In this document: positions 1 through 7,775 of the stretch, piece by piece
How the letters are laid out: the number at the start of each line of letters is the position of its first letter
How positions within the stretch are numbered: position 1 is the first letter of the stretch
From: Anaerolineae bacterium
Lineage (GTDB): Bacteria; Chloroflexota; Anaerolineae; UBA4142; SHND01
Assembly: GCA_020851635.1 (NCBI GenBank)
Contig: JADZCJ010000032.1
Location: forward strand, 1 to 64,000
Reading direction: 5' to 3'
DNA: 64,000 nucleotides
Position numbers and translations under genes: made by a program
Notes under the pieces: model-generated
What the model was told of the DNA's origin: nothing
The model's input: the letters and a program-made list of their open reading frames with translations, nothing else
Databases searched by the model: none

Positions 1-1351
1 ACGCTAGCATCACGACCAAGACCAAACTCACCAAGCGTTCGTCTTTATGCAGCCACAGCGGATGAATTTGGAGCGGGCCTTTGACGATCGCAAAGCGTTT
101 CTCGGCCAGGTCTTGTTGCTTGAAGCGTTGCAAGACTTCAACGGCACTCAAGTCCCAGCGATTGGTCACGAGCGGATAGCGTCCGTCGCGTTGTTGCGCT
201 TGGGCCAGCGCGACGGCATTCACTTGAAACGTCAGGGTGAGGGCACCGTCCTCGCCCGTTAACGCCACCTCGACCAGCGTTTTCGCCGCATTGCCGCGCT
301 GCGCCAGATGAATCTGTTCGAGCGTATACGTGCGCTGTTTGTATTTGCGCTGATTCAGGTGTTTCTGAATGGTGGTGAGGCGTTGGCACAACTGGTCCAT
401 CTGGGCTTGGCGCTTTTCCGCATCGAGTTTTGCTTTCGTGCGGCTATACACCACCAACACCCGCAGCCGCAGTGCGCGACTTTCATAGGTCAGGGTGTGT
501 TCCCGCCAAACGGCCGCATACAGCGGGACACTGTTCGCCGCCGCCCGTTGCGGCACGTAGTCCAAGGTGGCGGCGTGCAACTCGTCCGCAGACACCGCAT
601 CAATTAGGGTTTGCAAAGCCGCATCTGCGGTCATCGGGCTGATAAAGCGTTGCTGGTGCGCCGCATACCAGTCCAGCGTTTCCGGCGTTGCCATCGCACG
701 ATCATGCACGACGGTCGTTTCGGTCGGCGGGAGTTCTTTGAGCAAGGCGTGGACCGCCGTCATATTATCACGCGGCGTGGTCGCCTCCGCGGTATTGCCG
801 ACGAGCACCCGAAATGCGAGGGGTAAGCCCTCGCCCGTCACGTTCAAGCCCAGATTGAGTTGCTTGCTATCGGGACGTTGATCCCGACTGTAACCGAACT
901 TGACCCATTCGCTCTCGGTGTACAGGCCTTCAAAATAGGTCGAGGTGATGTCGTAATGCAACCATGCCAAGGGCAGTTGATAGTGTTGGATGGCTTGGCG
1001 AAGCACGTCCTGCCAAATCGCCTGATGTTTTGGAAAGAGCGTATCGAGGGTTTCCCCCAAGCGGGTGTCATGCGCCTGTTCGGGTTGCACCGCTAGGGGT
1101 GTGGCGAGGGCCGTCTGTTCTAACCAGTCGGCCACTTTGTAGAGTGGGCGCGGGGCTTGCAGCCGATTGCAGACCAACAGTTGCGTGATCTGCCCATGGC
1201 TTACCGTGTGCGCGCTGGGACATTGCCGATTCACCGCCGCCACCACCCCCAGTTCACGCAAGAGCGGCAAGGTCAGCAGTGCCGCACCGGGATTCCGAGC
1301 GACTTGGGATTGAAACGAGCGCGCAAAGAGTTCGGCTTGGGTTGAGTTCAA
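1..1351 (-). CDS. IS1634-type (DUF4277/DDE) transposase, 3' end outside window
   Basis: A single open frame runs from 1351 leftward off the window edge (about 450 codons visible, no stop). Translated by hand it begins MNSTQAELFARSFQSQ and contains LHYDITSTYFEG and VVHDRAMATPE. This pattern is typical of IS1634/IS4-superfamily DDE transposases: an N-terminal DUF4277-like part, then the RNase-H-fold core with aspartates. I chose a TTG start at 1351 because an in-frame TGA lies four codons upstream and AAGG sits 6 nt before it. No frameshift is visible, so the copy may be intact, but the C-terminal catalytic Glu and the far terminal repeat are outside. It lies tail-to-head behind elp3 and probably marks a mobile-element insertion at the end of this block. 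Confidence 0.8.
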   Translation of the reverse strand, partial: MNSTQAELFARSFQSQVARNPGAALLTLPLLRELGVVAAVNRQCPSAHTVSHGQITQLLVCNRLQAPRPLYKVADWLEQTALATPLAVQPEQAHDTRLGETLDTLFPKHQAIWQDVLRQAIQHYQLPLAWLHYDITSTYFEGLYTESEWVKFGYSRDQRPDSKQLNLGLNVTGEGLPLAFRVLVGNTAEATTPRDNMTAVHALLKELPPTETTVVHDRAMATPETLDWYAAHQQRFISPMTADAALQTLIDAVSADELHAATLDYVPQRAAANSVPLYAAVWREHTLTYESRALRLRVLVVYSRTKAKLDAEKRQAQMDQLCQRLTTIQKHLNQRKYKQRTYTLEQIHLAQRGNAAKTLVEVALTGEDGALTLTFQVNAVALAQAQQRDGRYPLVTNRWDLSAVEVLQRFKQQDLAEKRFAIVKGPLQIHPLWLHKDERLVSLVLVVMLA

Positions 1352-1446: not shown

Positions 1447-3063
1447 TCAGATGGACTTGAGCATATACAGGTCTTCCAGTTCAAAGCCCAATTTCCGATA
1501 ATACTCGCGCGTGCCCAGCGCGGAAATGACCGCCAGCCGCTTGAACCCCGCCTCTCGCGCAATTTCTATCGCGCGTTCTGCAAGACGTCGCCCCAACCCC
1601 GAGTGCTGCACCTTGCCCGCATCGTTCGTCCCCAACTCGATTGCCGGTCCAAAAATATGGAGCTCGCGCACCATCGCGTTGCCGCGCAGTTCCGGCAGAA
1701 TCTCGTCGCTCGGCACGTCTGCGTGCGGCAGACTCAGACGTAAAAAGCCCGCGAGTTTTCCGGTCGGTGTCAGATACTGCAAGAAATGTTCGGTCGTTGC
1801 ATCGGTCTCGTACCGATAATCCTGCATTTCCAACGTCGCTCGGTCAACGCGCTCATTCCGCACTTCTCTGCATCGGATGCACTGACACTGCCATCCGCGC
1901 CGTTTCATTTCTGACTGGACGACCACGCGCAAATTTGATTGCGTGCTGCCCGCCGCAATATACTGTGCAGGGATGTCACGAATCACGCGGTTGATGCGAC
2001 AATAGGGTGGCGTAAAGCGTTTTGCCTGCGCCAGCGTCTCGATCAATTCCTCATCCGTGTACGGGCGATATTTGCCAGCTTGCCACAAGCGATACAGTTC
2101 CGTGTCCTCGATCAACATGCACGGATATATCTTGAGCTCATCCGGGCGCAGCGCCGTATCCGTCCACAAATTCTCGTAATCGCGCACATCGCCTTCGGGC
2201 GTCGCGCCATACAGATTTGGCATCCAATGCAGGTGCAGTTTGAATCCGGCAAGCCGCAGCAGCCGCACCGCGCGCCGCGTGTCCTCGATCGTGTGATCGC
2301 GCCGGTTCAGTTTCAGAATTTCGTTGTTCGTGCTTTGTGCGCCCAACTGGATCTTGGTCATGCCCAGCCAGCGCAGACGCCGTACCTCTGCCATGTCCAC
2401 ATAATCGGGACGGGTCTCGATCACCAGCCCCACATTGCGATGCGCGGCCGTCTCATTCCGCACCTGCGCCTCTTCCAGCGTTTTCGCAGGGTCGCCGCCG
2501 TTCATCGCATCCAGACAGCGCCGCACATACCATTCCTGGTATTTCTTGGGGTACGCTGACCACGTCGCGCCGATGATCAATAGTTCGATTTTGTCGGTGG
2601 GGTGCCCCATTGATGCGAGCGTATCCATCCGCACCTTGACGGACTTGAATGGGTCAAAACGCTCCCGCATCGCGCGCTGGACGGCAGGTTCATCGGGCAA
2701 ATAACTGCGCGGCACGCCTTTGGCGTCGGGGCAAAAGATGCAATCGGCAGGGCACGGATACGGACCGGTCAACACCGCCACGGGCGCAACGCCCGAAATC
2801 GTGCGCGTCGGCTTTTGACGCAAGCGTTCAAACAATTCCCGCTCGAACGGGATGACGCCCTGCGCCGTCAATTCCTTGTATGCCTCGACGACCAGAGTTT
2901 GCGGCGCCGAATTTCCGTCCGCCCCATGCACATGCTTGACCATCAGCGCATTCAACTGTGTCGCCGAGAGCTTGCCCGCCGCGCGTACAGCATCAAAAAA
3001 CGCCAGTAGTTCCTCTTGCCTGACGTTCACCCAAGCTGTAGATTCGGGTTCGTGAATCAGCAT
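1447..3063 (-). CDS. elp3: Elp3-family tRNA uridine(34) acetyl/carboxymethyl synthase (radical SAM + GNAT)
   Basis: Elp3 makes the carboxymethyl group at C5 of wobble U34 in tRNA, using acetyl-CoA and SAM radical chemistry; the bacterial Dehalococcoides enzyme works without Elongator partners. The protein (538 aa from ATG 3063) has the radical-SAM cluster motif CPADCIFC (Cys 104, 108, 111) and an Elp3-typical HRNVGLVIETRPD segment. It ends in a GNAT acetyltransferase domain (GLGRRLAERAIEIAREAGF). I prefer ATG 3063, with AAAGAGAC just before it, over a GTG 13 codons upstream. It is transcribed divergently from a Trm9-like methyltransferase, whose start lies 76 bp away. Length and domain order match stand-alone bacterial/archaeal Elp3. 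Confident in the family; substrate tRNAs are not visible. Confidence 0.93.
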   Translation of the reverse strand: MLIHEPESTAWVNVRQEELLAFFDAVRAAGKLSATQLNALMVKHVHGADGNSAPQTLVVEAYKELTAQGVIPFERELFERLRQKPTRTISGVAPVAVLTGPYPCPADCIFCPDAKGVPRSYLPDEPAVQRAMRERFDPFKSVKVRMDTLASMGHPTDKIELLIIGATWSAYPKKYQEWYVRRCLDAMNGGDPAKTLEEAQVRNETAAHRNVGLVIETRPDYVDMAEVRRLRWLGMTKIQLGAQSTNNEILKLNRRDHTIEDTRRAVRLLRLAGFKLHLHWMPNLYGATPEGDVRDYENLWTDTALRPDELKIYPCMLIEDTELYRLWQAGKYRPYTDEELIETLAQAKRFTPPYCRINRVIRDIPAQYIAAGSTQSNLRVVVQSEMKRRGWQCQCIRCREVRNERVDRATLEMQDYRYETDATTEHFLQYLTPTGKLAGFLRLSLPHADVPSDEILPELRGNAMVRELHIFGPAIELGTNDAGKVQHSGLGRRLAERAIEIAREAGFKRLAVISALGTREYYRKLGFELEDLYMLKSI

Positions 3064-3125
3064 GTCTCTTTGATGTGGACCTGTAGCGACGCCGAGAACC
3101 ACGCTGCTGCAGATTCCCGCCGTGC

Positions 3126-3131
3126 TATAAT
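3126..3131 (+). promoter_or_regulatory. -10 element placing the mRNA 5' end at the GTG start (leaderless)
   Basis: A perfect TATAAT lies 7 nt before GTG 3139. With the usual 6-8 nt from -10 to the first transcribed base, transcription would begin at or next to the start codon. No Shine-Dalgarno motif precedes the GTG and no good -35 is seen. Confidence 0.6.
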
Positions 3132-3138
3132 CTTACTT

Positions 3139-3858
3139 GTGGAAGAGGAAACCGTCAATAAACTTTTAGAAATCAATCGCATTTTTTACTCGCAATTCAG
3201 CGATGATTTTTCGGATTCCCGCTCCGGCGACCGTTTGGACCTCGACCCCTTTCGACACTACCTCTCGGATGGTATCCGCCTGCTGGATATCGGCTGCGGC
3301 AACGGACGCCTTGCAGTCGCTCTCGAAAAGGCGGGTTTTGCGCTCGATTACTTTGGAATTGACGGTTCGGCGGAACTTGTCGCCTTTGCAAATTCACAAG
3401 CCGACTCGTTTCAGAGCGTTCGCGCTGAATTTCATGTCGCAAATCTGGTCCCTTTTTCATGGCGCGACGCAATCAGTCACCATGCCCCCTTCGACGTGAT
3501 TCTCTCACTTGCCGTCCTGCATCACATCCCGAGTTTTGATCTCCGCTCTCAAATCATCACCGAAATCCGTTCGCTGCTGAAACCCGGGGGCATTTTTGTC
3601 ATGTCCAACTGGCAGTTCACCCACAGCGACCGCCTCCGCAAAAAAATCCGAGACTGGTCACAGGTTGGGCTGGATCCGACCCAACTCGACCCCGACGACT
3701 ATCTCCTCGATTGGAAGCGCGGCGGCACAGGTTATCGCTATGTGCATCTTGTCACAGAATCCGAAGTTGTCGCCCTTGCGCAATCCGCGCATATGAACGT
3801 TTTAACCCAGTTCTATGCCGACAACGACTTGAACCTCTACAGCATCTTTCGACGTTAG
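3139..3858 (+). CDS. Class I SAM methyltransferase resembling Trm9/ALKBH8 (tRNA mcm5U methyltransferase)
   Basis: The SAM-binding motif is LLDIGCGNGR (residues 48-57), followed by FDVILSLAVLHHI and LLKPGGIFVMSNWQF, then a C-terminal HLVTESEVVALAQ segment. This order and wording resemble Trm9 and the ALKBH8 methyltransferase domain. Those enzymes methylate the carboxymethyl group that Elp3 installs at tRNA U34, giving mcm5U. I place the start at GTG 3139, a 239-aa product of about Trm9 size, because TATAAT is only 7 nt upstream; longer readings would put the promoter inside the gene. Head-to-head arrangement with elp3 supports, but does not prove, a shared pathway. An unrelated small-molecule methyltransferase is the alternative. 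Confidence 0.75.
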   Translation: MEEETVNKLLEINRIFYSQFSDDFSDSRSGDRLDLDPFRHYLSDGIRLLDIGCGNGRLAVALEKAGFALDYFGIDGSAELVAFANSQADSFQSVRAEFHVANLVPFSWRDAISHHAPFDVILSLAVLHHIPSFDLRSQIITEIRSLLKPGGIFVMSNWQFTHSDRLRKKIRDWSQVGLDPTQLDPDDYLLDWKRGGTGYRYVHLVTESEVVALAQSAHMNVLTQFYADNDLNLYSIFRR

Positions 3859-3881: not shown

Positions 3882-4532
3882 TCACTTGCGCCCATAGTCC
3901 GCCGGATTCTCTCCCCAATCTCTCGTTCGCCATTTTAATATCCGATTGGGATACCGGTTCGTCCTCAGCCATTCCTGTGCGCGGTCAATGCGTTCAAACA
4001 ATTCCGCATTCCGCGCATTTCTCTCCAATTGCGTCTTGCACCGTTTTGCCGCCACCCACGCGATCGCGTTGCGCGAATCCGAATACACGGGCGCGCGGTC
4101 GTTCTGGCGCTTTAATATCTCGAGCGTTTCGACAATTGCCAAAAACTCGCCAATATTGCTCGTTCCTTCGGGAAAAGGACCTCTTGCAAAAAGCGGTTCT
4201 CTCGATTCCGTCTTGACCGCCCGATACTCTATCACGCCAGGGTTCCCACGGCACGCCGTATCCGCACAATAACTCGGCACAATTGGCAGATTGATACCCG
4301 ACAGCCGCGTCTCTTCCCGGCGCGCGCTCGGTGTTGCACGATAGTTCGCATGTGTCCGCCTGACGTTCCGCCCTTGCGCCAGAGCCGCTTTTGCCTCCGC
4401 ACGTGTTCCAAAGGACTTGAATTGCGCTCCTGCGAATCCGTTCACCTGCGCCGACGCCTCATCCCACGTCTCAAAGATCCCCGTCTTGCGACCCTGCCAC
4501 ACCACATAAAATTTCTGTTTTTTGTTTGCCAT
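3882..4532 (-). CDS. rnhA: Ribonuclease HI with N-terminal viroplasmin-type hybrid-binding domain
   Basis: Cuts the RNA strand of RNA-DNA hybrids. The N-terminus, from FYVVWQGRKTGIFETW (residues 8-23), is the Cauli_VI/viroplasmin-like hybrid-binding domain. Residues ~85-216 are an RNase HI core very close to the Bacillus halodurans type, with acidic residues Asp91 (DTACRGNPG), Glu129 (GEFLAIVE), Asp152 (YSDSRNA), Glu208 and Asp212 (ENPADYGRK). The chosen ATG at 4532 has a G-rich GGGGG stretch before it; a longer in-frame reading adds 34 unlike residues and was rejected. Minus-strand TTGGAA and TTATTT spaced 17 bp apart, 11 bp from the ATG, could be its promoter. It converges on the methyltransferase gene, with 23 bp between them. 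Confidence 0.9.
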   Translation of the reverse strand: MANKKQKFYVVWQGRKTGIFETWDEASAQVNGFAGAQFKSFGTRAEAKAALAQGRNVRRTHANYRATPSARREETRLSGINLPIVPSYCADTACRGNPGVIEYRAVKTESREPLFARGPFPEGTSNIGEFLAIVETLEILKRQNDRAPVYSDSRNAIAWVAAKRCKTQLERNARNAELFERIDRAQEWLRTNRYPNRILKWRTRDWGENPADYGRK

Positions 4533-4631
4533 AACCCCCATCCAAATAACGCGAAATCGGATACAATTCCAATGTATCATATCACACGGCACTTCGCGTA
4601 CCGCCGAGTGCCAATCGCTCGAATCAATTCC

Positions 4632-4757: not shown

Positions 4758-6230
4758 ATGTTCCGTCCGCGCGTCCAATTTCTCGATCCCGCCCTCATTC
4801 CGAACCTGCTTGACGAGGTCTTTGCCATTCTCGAAAATCCCGGAGTCATTTTTCAATGGACGCCCGCGCTCGAGCTGCTCGCCGACCACGGCGCCGACGT
4901 CAATTTCGAAACCAACACCGCGCGCCTGCCGCGTTCCCTGGTCGAGGGCGCGCTGAAAACCGCGCCGCACGAATTTTTTCTCCATGACGCGCCGGGAAAT
5001 CGGCGCGTGCGCTATGGCGGCGACGCGATTCACTATGACCCCGGCTCTTCGGCGCTCTGGATGTATGACAGCGCCACACACGCCTACCGCGCTCCCGTCA
5101 CGAGCGATTTTGTCCAATATGCCCGCATCGCCGACCGTTTGCCCGCGTTCGACGCCCTCGCTACCGCCTTTATCCCCGAAGATGTGCCGGGCGACATGGG
5201 CGATTTGTACCGCCTCTATCTATGTCTCTGCTGTTCCGACAAACCCATAGTCACGGGCGCATTTGCCGTCGAGACGATGCAGGTGATGCGCGAATTGCTG
5301 TCGGTCATGGCAGGCGGCGATGCTGCGCTCAAGGAAAAACCTCGCGCTGTCTTTGACGTCTGTCCCACCCCGCCCCTTCAGTGGAGTGACAACACCAGCT
5401 CCAATATCATCGAAGGGGCGTGGCACTTTATCCCAATCGAACTTGTCGCCGTTCCGCTTGCCGGAGCAGCAGCCCCTATCACCCTGATCGGTTCTGTTGC
5501 TCAGCACATTGCCGAAAATCTCTCCGGTCTCGTCCTGCACCAGTGCGCCCAGCCCGGCGCGCCCGTTGTCTTTGGCGGCGCGCCCTCTATCTTTGATATG
5601 CGTATGGGCGTCACGCCCCTGGGCGCTATCGAGAGCTCCATGATGTCGTGTGCCACCGCGCAGGTCGCCAAGTATCTCGGGTTGCCCACTCATGGGTATC
5701 TCGGTCTTGCGGACACCAAATTGCCCGACATGCAGGCGGGTTGGGAAACGGGCATGAGCGCGCTGCTCGGCGCGCTCGCGGGTGTCAACATGATGAGTGG
5801 GGCAGGGCTGCTCGACAGCGCAGCCGCGTTCAGCATTGAAAAAATGATCGCCGACGCCGAGGTCATTTCAATGGCGCGCAAGACGGTAGAGGGCATCGCG
5901 CGTGTCGAACCCGGCACATTTGCGCTTGAAATGCTCCAGCGCGTTGGACCCGGCGGCACATTCCTCGATTCAGAAGAAACCCTTGCGCGATTTCGGCTCG
6001 ACCAGATCCAACACACTCCCGTTGTTGACCGCGTCACCCGCCGCACGTGGGTAAATGCGGGAATGCCTGATACCATTGCCCGCGCGCGTCTGCAGCGCGA
6101 AAAAATCGAGCGCGAGCTGAAACCTCGCGCCATGGACACAAACCTTGCAAACGAACTGCGCGCAATCGTCGCGCATCGAGCAAAGTTGGACGGCATGGAC
6201 GAATTGCCCAAACTTTCTATTGACGGCTAA
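4758..6230 (+). CDS. MttB-family corrinoid-dependent methyltransferase (non-pyrrolysine type)
   Basis: 490 aa, the usual length for trimethylamine methyltransferase (MttB) family proteins. Family features include the N-terminal segment after MFRPRVQFLD, TPPLQWSDNTS, GAPSIFDMRMG and the glycine/methionine-rich GVNMMSGAGLLDS. No in-frame amber codon interrupts the frame, so it belongs to the non-pyrrolysine branch, where characterised members demethylate glycine betaine or other quaternary amines rather than trimethylamine. No corrinoid protein or activating enzyme is adjacent. Start ATG 4758 has GAGG 6 nt upstream and follows a repeat-filled leader; an upstream in-frame extension is low-complexity repeat and was rejected. 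The substrate cannot be told from sequence. Confidence 0.85.
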   Translation: MFRPRVQFLDPALIPNLLDEVFAILENPGVIFQWTPALELLADHGADVNFETNTARLPRSLVEGALKTAPHEFFLHDAPGNRRVRYGGDAIHYDPGSSALWMYDSATHAYRAPVTSDFVQYARIADRLPAFDALATAFIPEDVPGDMGDLYRLYLCLCCSDKPIVTGAFAVETMQVMRELLSVMAGGDAALKEKPRAVFDVCPTPPLQWSDNTSSNIIEGAWHFIPIELVAVPLAGAAAPITLIGSVAQHIAENLSGLVLHQCAQPGAPVVFGGAPSIFDMRMGVTPLGAIESSMMSCATAQVAKYLGLPTHGYLGLADTKLPDMQAGWETGMSALLGALAGVNMMSGAGLLDSAAAFSIEKMIADAEVISMARKTVEGIARVEPGTFALEMLQRVGPGGTFLDSEETLARFRLDQIQHTPVVDRVTRRTWVNAGMPDTIARARLQREKIERELKPRAMDTNLANELRAIVAHRAKLDGMDELPKLSIDG

Positions 6231-6433: not shown

Positions 6434-7546
6434 TTATTCGCCAATAACTCCCGCGCCGCGCAGCTCTTCCACTTGTTCCCGCGAGACCCCCAATTGTTCC
6501 AGTACCGCTTCCGTGTCCTGCCCCAGGCGCGGCGTCCTTCCGTCCAGGTTGATCGGATTTCGCGCGCCTGCCAGCGGCTGTTCCAACGCCTCGCTTACAC
6601 TCAACAGCGGTTCCAGACAGCAGTCCACCCGTTTCGAAAACTCGGTCCACTCGGCGCGCGAGCGCTCTCGAAACACCTCTGCCACGCGCGGAATCGCCTC
6701 GTCGTCGAACTGCCCGTCAATCAACTCCGAGCGTCCTGCCTCGATGCAAAACGCCTTCCAAAAGATCGGCTCCAGCGCGCCCAGCGCCATAAATTCACCG
6801 TCGGACGTTTCATACACGTTGTAACAGGGGTATGCGCCCGCCAACGGCATCATCCCGCGCTGCGGATTCTCGCCTTCGGCGCGATACACTGCTCCGTTGA
6901 CCGTTTGCATCCAATCCAGCGCGGCGCCATAAAGCGAAACATCCAAAAAGGAGCCAACGCCCGTCCGTTCGCGCTCCACCAGCGCCGCCGCGATACGCAG
7001 AGCAGCTTCCATGCCGCCCGCCAGGTCCGCCATCTGAATCGGCAGGGGCATCGGCTTTTTCTCGCGTTCGCCGTTCAGCTTTAGTATCCCCGCCAGCGCC
7101 ATATAATTCAAATCATGCCCCGCGCGCGCCGCATACTCGCCGGTCTGCCCGTACCCGCTCAGCGAACAATAGATTATGCGCGGGTTGCGCTCTCGCACAC
7201 TCGCATAATCCAGCCCGCGCCGCGCCAGCATGTTCGGGCGAAATGACTCGACAAATACATCCGCACCTTCAGACATGCTCAGCACCAACTCGCGCCCGCG
7301 CGCCGTGTCAAAATCTATTGCCACGCTCTTTTTGTGGCGGTTGTTTTGCGCAAACACCGCTCCCTCGAACTGGTCTTGCCCGAGAGCTATAAATGGCGGC
7401 ATCCCCCGCGCATAATCCCCCAGGGGCGTCCGCTCGATCTTGATCACCTCCGCCCCCATCTGCGCCAACAATTGCGTCGCATGCGGTCCCGGCAGCAGCC
7501 GCGACAGGTCCAATACCCGTACCCCGCTCAATGCATTACTCTGCAT
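6434..7546 (-). CDS. CaiB/BaiF-family CoA transferase, alpha-methylacyl-CoA racemase-like
   Basis: Family III CoA-transferase fold of about 370 aa. The N-terminus NALSGVRVLDLSRLLPGP, the GHDLNYMALAG motif and MADLAGG match the His/Asp pair used by alpha-methylacyl-CoA racemases more closely than the single Asp of formyl-CoA transferases. Either CoA transfer or 2-methylacyl-CoA epimerisation is therefore possible. ATG 7546 has GGGAG 3 nt before it and was preferred over a TTG five codons upstream. It converges on the MttB gene. No acyl-CoA pathway gene is next to it, so its substrate is open. Confidence 0.85.
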   Translation of the reverse strand: MQSNALSGVRVLDLSRLLPGPHATQLLAQMGAEVIKIERTPLGDYARGMPPFIALGQDQFEGAVFAQNNRHKKSVAIDFDTARGRELVLSMSEGADVFVESFRPNMLARRGLDYASVRERNPRIIYCSLSGYGQTGEYAARAGHDLNYMALAGILKLNGEREKKPMPLPIQMADLAGGMEAALRIAAALVERERTGVGSFLDVSLYGAALDWMQTVNGAVYRAEGENPQRGMMPLAGAYPCYNVYETSDGEFMALGALEPIFWKAFCIEAGRSELIDGQFDDEAIPRVAEVFRERSRAEWTEFSKRVDCCLEPLLSVSEALEQPLAGARNPINLDGRTPRLGQDTEAVLEQLGVSREQVEELRGAGVIGE

Positions 7547-7775
7547 AGTCTCCCTTTGCAAAAAGAAATTCAGTCTTTATCAAATCTTTACTTGATCGTA
7601 ACACAAAAGCATTGACTCGTGACTGGATGGATGATAAGGTTATCTCGAAATATCTCGTTGGTTCTCTGGGGGGAAACCAACGAACTTGGTCTAGTTGGGT
7701 TGGGTGTTCGGGAACTATACCGCATATTGCTGCCGAACAACATTCCATCATCGGTGTATTCCCTGGGGGGATGTC
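7547..7775. other. Divergent intergenic region without a recognised gene
   Basis: Between the CaiB-like gene and the Pat-like gene I see no convincing gene. There is a small inverted repeat (CGTTGGTT ... AACCAACG, around 7658-7684), and two copies of CTGGGGGGA about 95 bp apart. No tRNA or known RNA fold was recognised. Confidence 0.4.

Follow-up and report, generated by a model that had tools for sequence, protein, structure and literature searches.

Stand-alone Elp3 paired with a Trm9-like methyltransferase in Anaerolineae: a candidate two-enzyme wobble-uridine pathway in place of MnmE and MnmG

The chemistry of the wobble uridine is described as domain-specific, with mcm5U in eukaryotes and cmnm5U or mnm5U in bacteria, where MnmE and MnmG are the usual enzymes. 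Of this group of modifications, a 2020 review gives only cmnm5U, mnm5U, and nm5U to Bacteria and assigns mcm5U to archaea and eukaryotes (PMC7694415), while in eukaryotes mcm5s2U34 is described as corresponding to the (c)mnm5s2U34 of bacteria (PMC5400242). The yeast mcm5U pathway involves at least 15 proteins, and the coupling of Elp3 with Trm9 has been described in eukaryotes and proposed in some archaea (PMC5372719). Trm9 is activated by Trm112 in both eukaryotes and archaea (PMC5372719, PMC7694415). In Sulfolobus, the genes for Elp3 and Trm9 are clustered (PMC5372719), and a 2017 review recognised clear archaeal Trm9 candidates in Sulfolobales and Halobacteriales only. In the open-access literature we found neither a report of bacterial Trm9 or mcm5U nor a paper joining Elp3, MnmE, and Chloroflexi, in agreement with the preliminary description of the locus presented here, which knew of no established bacterial Elp3-Trm9 pathway.

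The window analysed, a stretch of 64,000 nucleotides from an Anaerolineae bacterium (contig JADZCJ010000032.1), carries elp3 and a methyltransferase gene head-to-head, with a gap of 36 bp between the longest open reading frames (Table 1). The length given for Elp3 is counted from the upstream-most GTG; translation may in fact begin further downstream, at the ATG at 3063 or another codon. The TATAAT hexamer stands at a similar distance before the methyltransferase start in about ten orthologues, which makes the GTG start probable; since this GTG lies just downstream of the hexamer and the spacing is repeated in orthologues, the methyltransferase mRNA is probably leaderless. A consensus promoter scan of the intergenic region returned a weak minus-strand site and nothing else. 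Directly downstream of elp3, which is left untruncated, lies a transposase with DUF4277 and DDE_Tnp_1 domains (2-1351, minus strand) that runs off the window edge and that we take to be IS1634-like. The methyltransferase gene adjoins a gene for a bacterial RNase H1-like protein with a Cauli_VI (RNase H1 N-terminal) domain (3882-4541, minus strand), and a homologue of the MttB-superfamily trimethylamine methyltransferases is found beyond it beside a family III CoA-transferase (4758-6227, plus strand, and 6437-7561, minus strand).

Table 1. Features of the divergent elp3-methyltransferase locus (window coordinates)
Feature	Position	Strand	Remarks
elp3	1447..3102	-	Stand-alone radical SAM/GNAT protein, predicted tRNA U34 carboxymethylation enzyme; 551 aa
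Divergent intergenic region	3103..3138	.	TATAAT at 3125-3130, 8 nt upstream of the methyltransferase GTG
Trm9-like class I SAM methyltransferase	3139..3858	+	239 aa, GTG start; predicted cm5U34 carboxyl methyltransferase
Codons of methyltransferase residues 187-203 (DYLLDWKRGGTGYRYVH)	3697..3747	+	Two predicted strands matching the two-stranded lid of YlTrm9

The stand-alone Elp3 that the preliminary description had recognised by its CPADCIFC motif and GNAT domain is complete. It scores 499.9 bits against TIGR01211 (cut-off 350), covering 49-521 of the 522 profile positions, and contains the Pfam domains Radical_SAM (PF04055), Radical_SAM_C (PF16199), and GNAT (PF00583). Searches of the PDB matched it to DmcElp3 (5l7j, E 1e-112) and to 6iaz, another solved stand-alone Elp3 (E 2e-116); CPADCIFC aligns with the cluster cysteines of both, and the GNAT region is aligned to its end with the solved structures. 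On the Elp3 tree, the branch of the window's protein is long, at 0.79 changes per site against a median of 0.18 in other class members. Compared with the bacterial, stand-alone Elp3 of Dehalococcoides mccartyi (5l7j), it belongs to the same family, with the same domain order and cluster cysteines. The two differ in company: at E <= 1e-30, the methyltransferase family was found in 28 of the 301 genomes sampled from the phylum, all of the window's class, and in no genome of another class, which gives no sign of a Trm9-like partner for Elp3 in the other classes of the phylum.

Generic profiles identify the partner as a SAM methyltransferase and nothing more specific. Its Pfam match is PF13847 (Methyltransf_31, E 1.8e-20), and it falls below the NCBIfam cut-offs for UbiG (50.8 against 102.95 bits), UbiE (22.7 against 216), CmoM (22.6 against 366), and CmoB (24.2 against 275). 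Using the single protein as query, the search for related loci returned distant partial methyltransferase matches and nothing closer, and plasmid searches gave no close relative. A profile built from 56 orthologues (A1) was more discriminating. Against 177,635 PDB sequences, its first match was Trm9 of Yarrowia (YlTrm9, 5cm2_Z; E 1.4e-15, positions 25-223), the only one of the five alignments listed to span the C-terminal lid, the other four ending at about 170 or earlier. In Thermoplasmatota, A1 retrieved about 40 full-length homologues at 65-126 bits, compared with 50-62 bits for generic methyltransferases, most of which were matched over the core only.

The reverse profile A2, made from archaeal Trm9-like proteins (Thermoplasmatota and one Natronorubrum protein) and YlTrm9, matched the methyltransferase at 100.4 bits over its full length (positions 11-225 of 228), ahead of a runner-up methyltransferase at 71.6 bits in the window's genome; across 150 genomes, nearly all of its highest and full-length matches were elp3-linked genes. 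Because the archaeal members of A2 had been recruited through A1, which makes this test partly circular, we added a search with YlTrm9 alone, which is not. It again placed the methyltransferase first in its genome (E 1.2e-7, against 1.4e-4 for the next protein) and the elp3-linked gene first in five other Elp3-positive genomes tested, and gave only partial matches in four genomes with MnmE/MnmG. The best specific match is thus Trm9 and not a ubiquinone or small-molecule methyltransferase, in both search directions.

The motifs and C-terminal layout that had been likened to Trm9 from the sequence were located: TR/SR at 27-28, HH at 128-129, and, within the last third of the protein, D-x4-W, RYxH, and NLY. 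In yeast Trm9, the substitutions R29A, H115A, R241A, Y243A, and N271A abolish tRNA affinity and activity (PMC5372719). Residues R29, H115, R241, and N271 of the yeast enzyme map to R28, H128/129, R200, and N232 of the window protein. All four are kept in 35 of 56 family members and at least three in 55 of 56, compared with at least three in 2 of 14 control methyltransferases; position 232 is Asn in 40 of the 56. The fifth residue, Tyr243, which we equated with the second Tyr in the RYY of YlTrm9, is not kept, the aligned position 202 being Cys, Val, or Ala in the bacterial family. A2 has 12 invariant positions outside the SAM motif; of these, family members match 10.1 on average and controls 3.6. 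These literature-residue and invariant-position tests supplement a third one with a modest margin, in which YlTrm9 matched 14 of the 25 sites outside SAM motif I that are conserved at >=90% in the bacterial family, and controls matched 6-13.

An AlphaFold2 model of the methyltransferase (pLDDT 95.8, pTM 0.91) places strands at 187-192 and 198-203, in the segment aligned with the Trm9 lid, where D187, W192, and R200 are invariant in the family alignment. YlTrm9 has a two-stranded active-site lid (PMC5372719), and the model predicts that the bacterial protein has one as well. Comparison of the model with the PDB by fold assigns it to the class I SAM fold, all 1000 aligned chains reaching a Z-score of 8 or more. 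With Foldseek, 5cm2_Z ranked fifth and had the highest target-normalised TM-score (0.77) among the matches listed; with VIA-align, METTL6 headed the list and 5cm2_Z was not among the best 50. As the scores of METTL6 and of several small-molecule methyltransferases equal or exceed that of Trm9, the fold does not discriminate between class I members.

The bacterial protein and eukaryotic Trm9-Trm112 or ALKBH8-TRMT112 have in common the class I SAM fold, the lid (predicted here), the coupling to Elp3, the TR, HH...R, D-x4-W, RYxH, and N motifs, and four of the five functionally tested residues. They differ in that the bacterial protein, about 27% identical to YlTrm9, lacks Tyr243 and the PWP that follows TR, has an insertion of about 20 residues before the lid, and occurs in a host without Elongator and without a stand-alone Trm112. 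Archaeal Trm9, known from Haloferax (HVO_1032) and Sulfolobus and represented here by the Natronorubrum bangense and Thermoplasmatota proteins, is connected to it by reciprocal, mostly full-length profile matches and by common residues R28, H128, R136, W158, D187, W192, R200, and N232, whereas the archaeal proteins keep YH after R(F/Y). A full-length Trm9-like protein is present in about 40 of 116 Thermoplasmatota genomes (L099-L118 among the loci), and none of 20 such genes checked has Elp3 within 1.5 kb. In a family tree of these very distant proteins, the bacterial family forms a separate, well-supported clade, and the tree is too weakly resolved at depth to group it with the archaeal and eukaryotic Trm9 proteins ahead of other methyltransferases. 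The kinship to Trm9 proposed in the preliminary description thus stands as far as the searches in both directions go and is qualified by Tyr243 and the tree, because of which we call the protein Trm9-like and not Trm9. In the most economical reading, the protein acts like Trm9.

The head-to-head arrangement is a recurrent one. In an even draw of 150 genomes from the window's class (Anaerolineae, Chloroflexota), a single-copy, mostly full-length orthologue of the methyltransferase was found in 64 genomes and Elp3 in 73, including 63 of the 64 carriers (hypergeometric 3e-30, the genomes not being independent). Of the 63 genomes with both genes, 52 have them no more than 1.1 kb apart, spanning 16 families and 38 genera; these counts are of genomes and not of independent events. 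As 51 of these pairs are divergent and one is tandem, the arrangement recurs in 51 of the 64 carriers and is thus not a matter of chance. In the remaining 11 carriers of both, the genes are not linked in the assembly, so the association is not due to a shared promoter alone. With a more sensitive profile, the methyltransferase was also recovered from an additional Elp3 genome (G055:C8), after which nine remain that lack it; relatives with Elp3 alone occur in families f11 and f23. On the Elp3 tree the nine sit in three places, consistent with the loss of a partner that their ancestor had. Around the pair, no additional gene is clearly conserved from family to family.

Elp3 and the usual bacterial enzymes exclude each other in this sample. 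MnmG was found in 48 of the 150 genomes and MnmE above its cut-off also in 48 (both in 44, either in 52), and none of the 52 overlaps with the 73 Elp3 genomes; neither protein was found in the window's genome. This mutual exclusivity suggests that, where MnmE and MnmG are missing, modification of U34 at C5 falls to Elp3. The MnmE-MnmG(-MnmC/MnmM) pathway targets the same position, C5 of U34, in bacteria, but with different chemistry (cmnm5U/mnm5U), and never occurs alongside Elp3 in the class. MnmA is present in the window's genome (352 bits) and in 21 of 23 Elp3-positive genomes tested. A separate group of 25 genomes, many of them at least 90% complete, has neither Elp3 nor MnmE/MnmG above threshold. 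They cluster in families f5, f10, and f12 and include G003, G008, G010, G034, G041, G046, G073, G099, G102, G119, G122, G138, and G141; MnmA was present in all five tested, and these genomes either lack the C5 modification or have a third system.

An alternative close to the two-enzyme reading is that the methyltransferase makes mcm5U and needs a Trm112-like partner drawn from the YcaR-type small proteins. PF03966 proteins occur in 128 of the 150 genomes, many as small open reading frames, and the activation of Trm9 by Trm112 in eukaryotes and archaea (PMC5372719, PMC7694415) would give such a partner a precedent. However, the one PF03966 domain found in the window's genome forms the N-terminal part of a 342-aa protein in which it is fused to another methyltransferase; no stand-alone PF03966 protein was found there, in a search that short divergent homologues could escape. 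In addition, no PF03966 match was obtained in 8 of the 64 carriers; one of these eight is from the same genus, and most reach a completeness of 97% or more. Nor does the presence of PF03966 follow the methyltransferase, as it is common in MnmE/MnmG genomes too. On these grounds an obligate free Trm112 appears unlikely from the genome data, and we hold a dependence on a YcaR-type partner to be unlikely as well. The fusion itself (G000:C97:13919-14026; L120:520-1545) consists of an N-terminal Trm112p zinc-knuckle and a class I methyltransferase that does not resemble Trm9. We weighed it as a candidate for the genuine Trm9 and discarded it, since its YlTrm9 score is lower with coverage only to 127 of 193, LEHL replaces HH, and the RYxH motif is missing.

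Two further alternatives give the methyltransferase another substrate. It could be an anticodon-loop enzyme that forms the methyl ester of cmo5U, like CmoM, or m3C32, like METTL2/6, its company with elp3 then reflecting common action on the anticodon loop. The weak CmoM and CmoB matches (22.6 and 24.2 bits) point this way, although the cut-offs are far above them, as do the METTL6 structures at the top of the VIA-align list (Z 22.0), although Z-scores within the class I fold lie close together and do not discriminate. An enzyme for cmo5U or m3C32 would not be expected to need cm5U synthesis, whereas this one tracks Elp3 in 63 of 64 genomes, and its lid and C-terminal motif align specifically with Trm9; we find such a target quite improbable. 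Even less credit goes to an unrelated small-molecule or protein methyltransferase that shares a divergent promoter with elp3 by accident. The UbiG and Methyltransf_31 profiles do score well over the SAM-binding core, but such generic matches end at about 156-176 and remain far under family cut-offs, the co-occurrence with Elp3 is kept where the genes are apart, and no carrier genome has MnmE or MnmG.

Taken together, these comparisons make it likely that Elp3 and the Trm9-like methyltransferase constitute a two-enzyme wobble-uridine pathway to mcm5U and mcm5s2U, which replaces MnmE/MnmG and apparently works without a free Trm112. This supports the interpretation in the preliminary description, which had suggested an mcm5U modification made by two proteins with neither Elongator nor Trm112; the exclusion of MnmE/MnmG and the lack of a stand-alone Trm112 in the window's genome add to that case. 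We infer its substrate, product, tRNA set, and Trm112 independence as follows. Elp3 would place a carboxymethyl group, derived from acetyl-CoA by radical SAM chemistry, on C5 of U34, and the methyltransferase would use SAM to methylate the carboxylate of cm5U34, yielding mcm5U34. Thiolation at C2 would be expected to continue through MnmA, so that the tRNAs also thiolated by this enzyme (expected to be those for Lys, Gln, and Glu) would carry mcm5s2U34. The two proteins would take the place of MnmE and MnmG with no Elongator subunits and apparently no free Trm112. On balance, it also seems probable that about half of the class has swapped MnmE/MnmG for this two-protein, Trm112-independent route to mcm5U and mcm5s2U.

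If this is true, the rule that wobble-uridine chemistry is domain-specific would not hold, since about half of the members of one bacterial class would have replaced MnmE/MnmG. In the two-enzyme reading, bacterial Elp3 gains a downstream step, and a route otherwise known only from archaea, yeast, and humans becomes apparent in a large bacterial group. It would provide a minimal, two-protein model of a pathway that takes many proteins in yeast, and a way to ask why Trm9 elsewhere needs Trm112.
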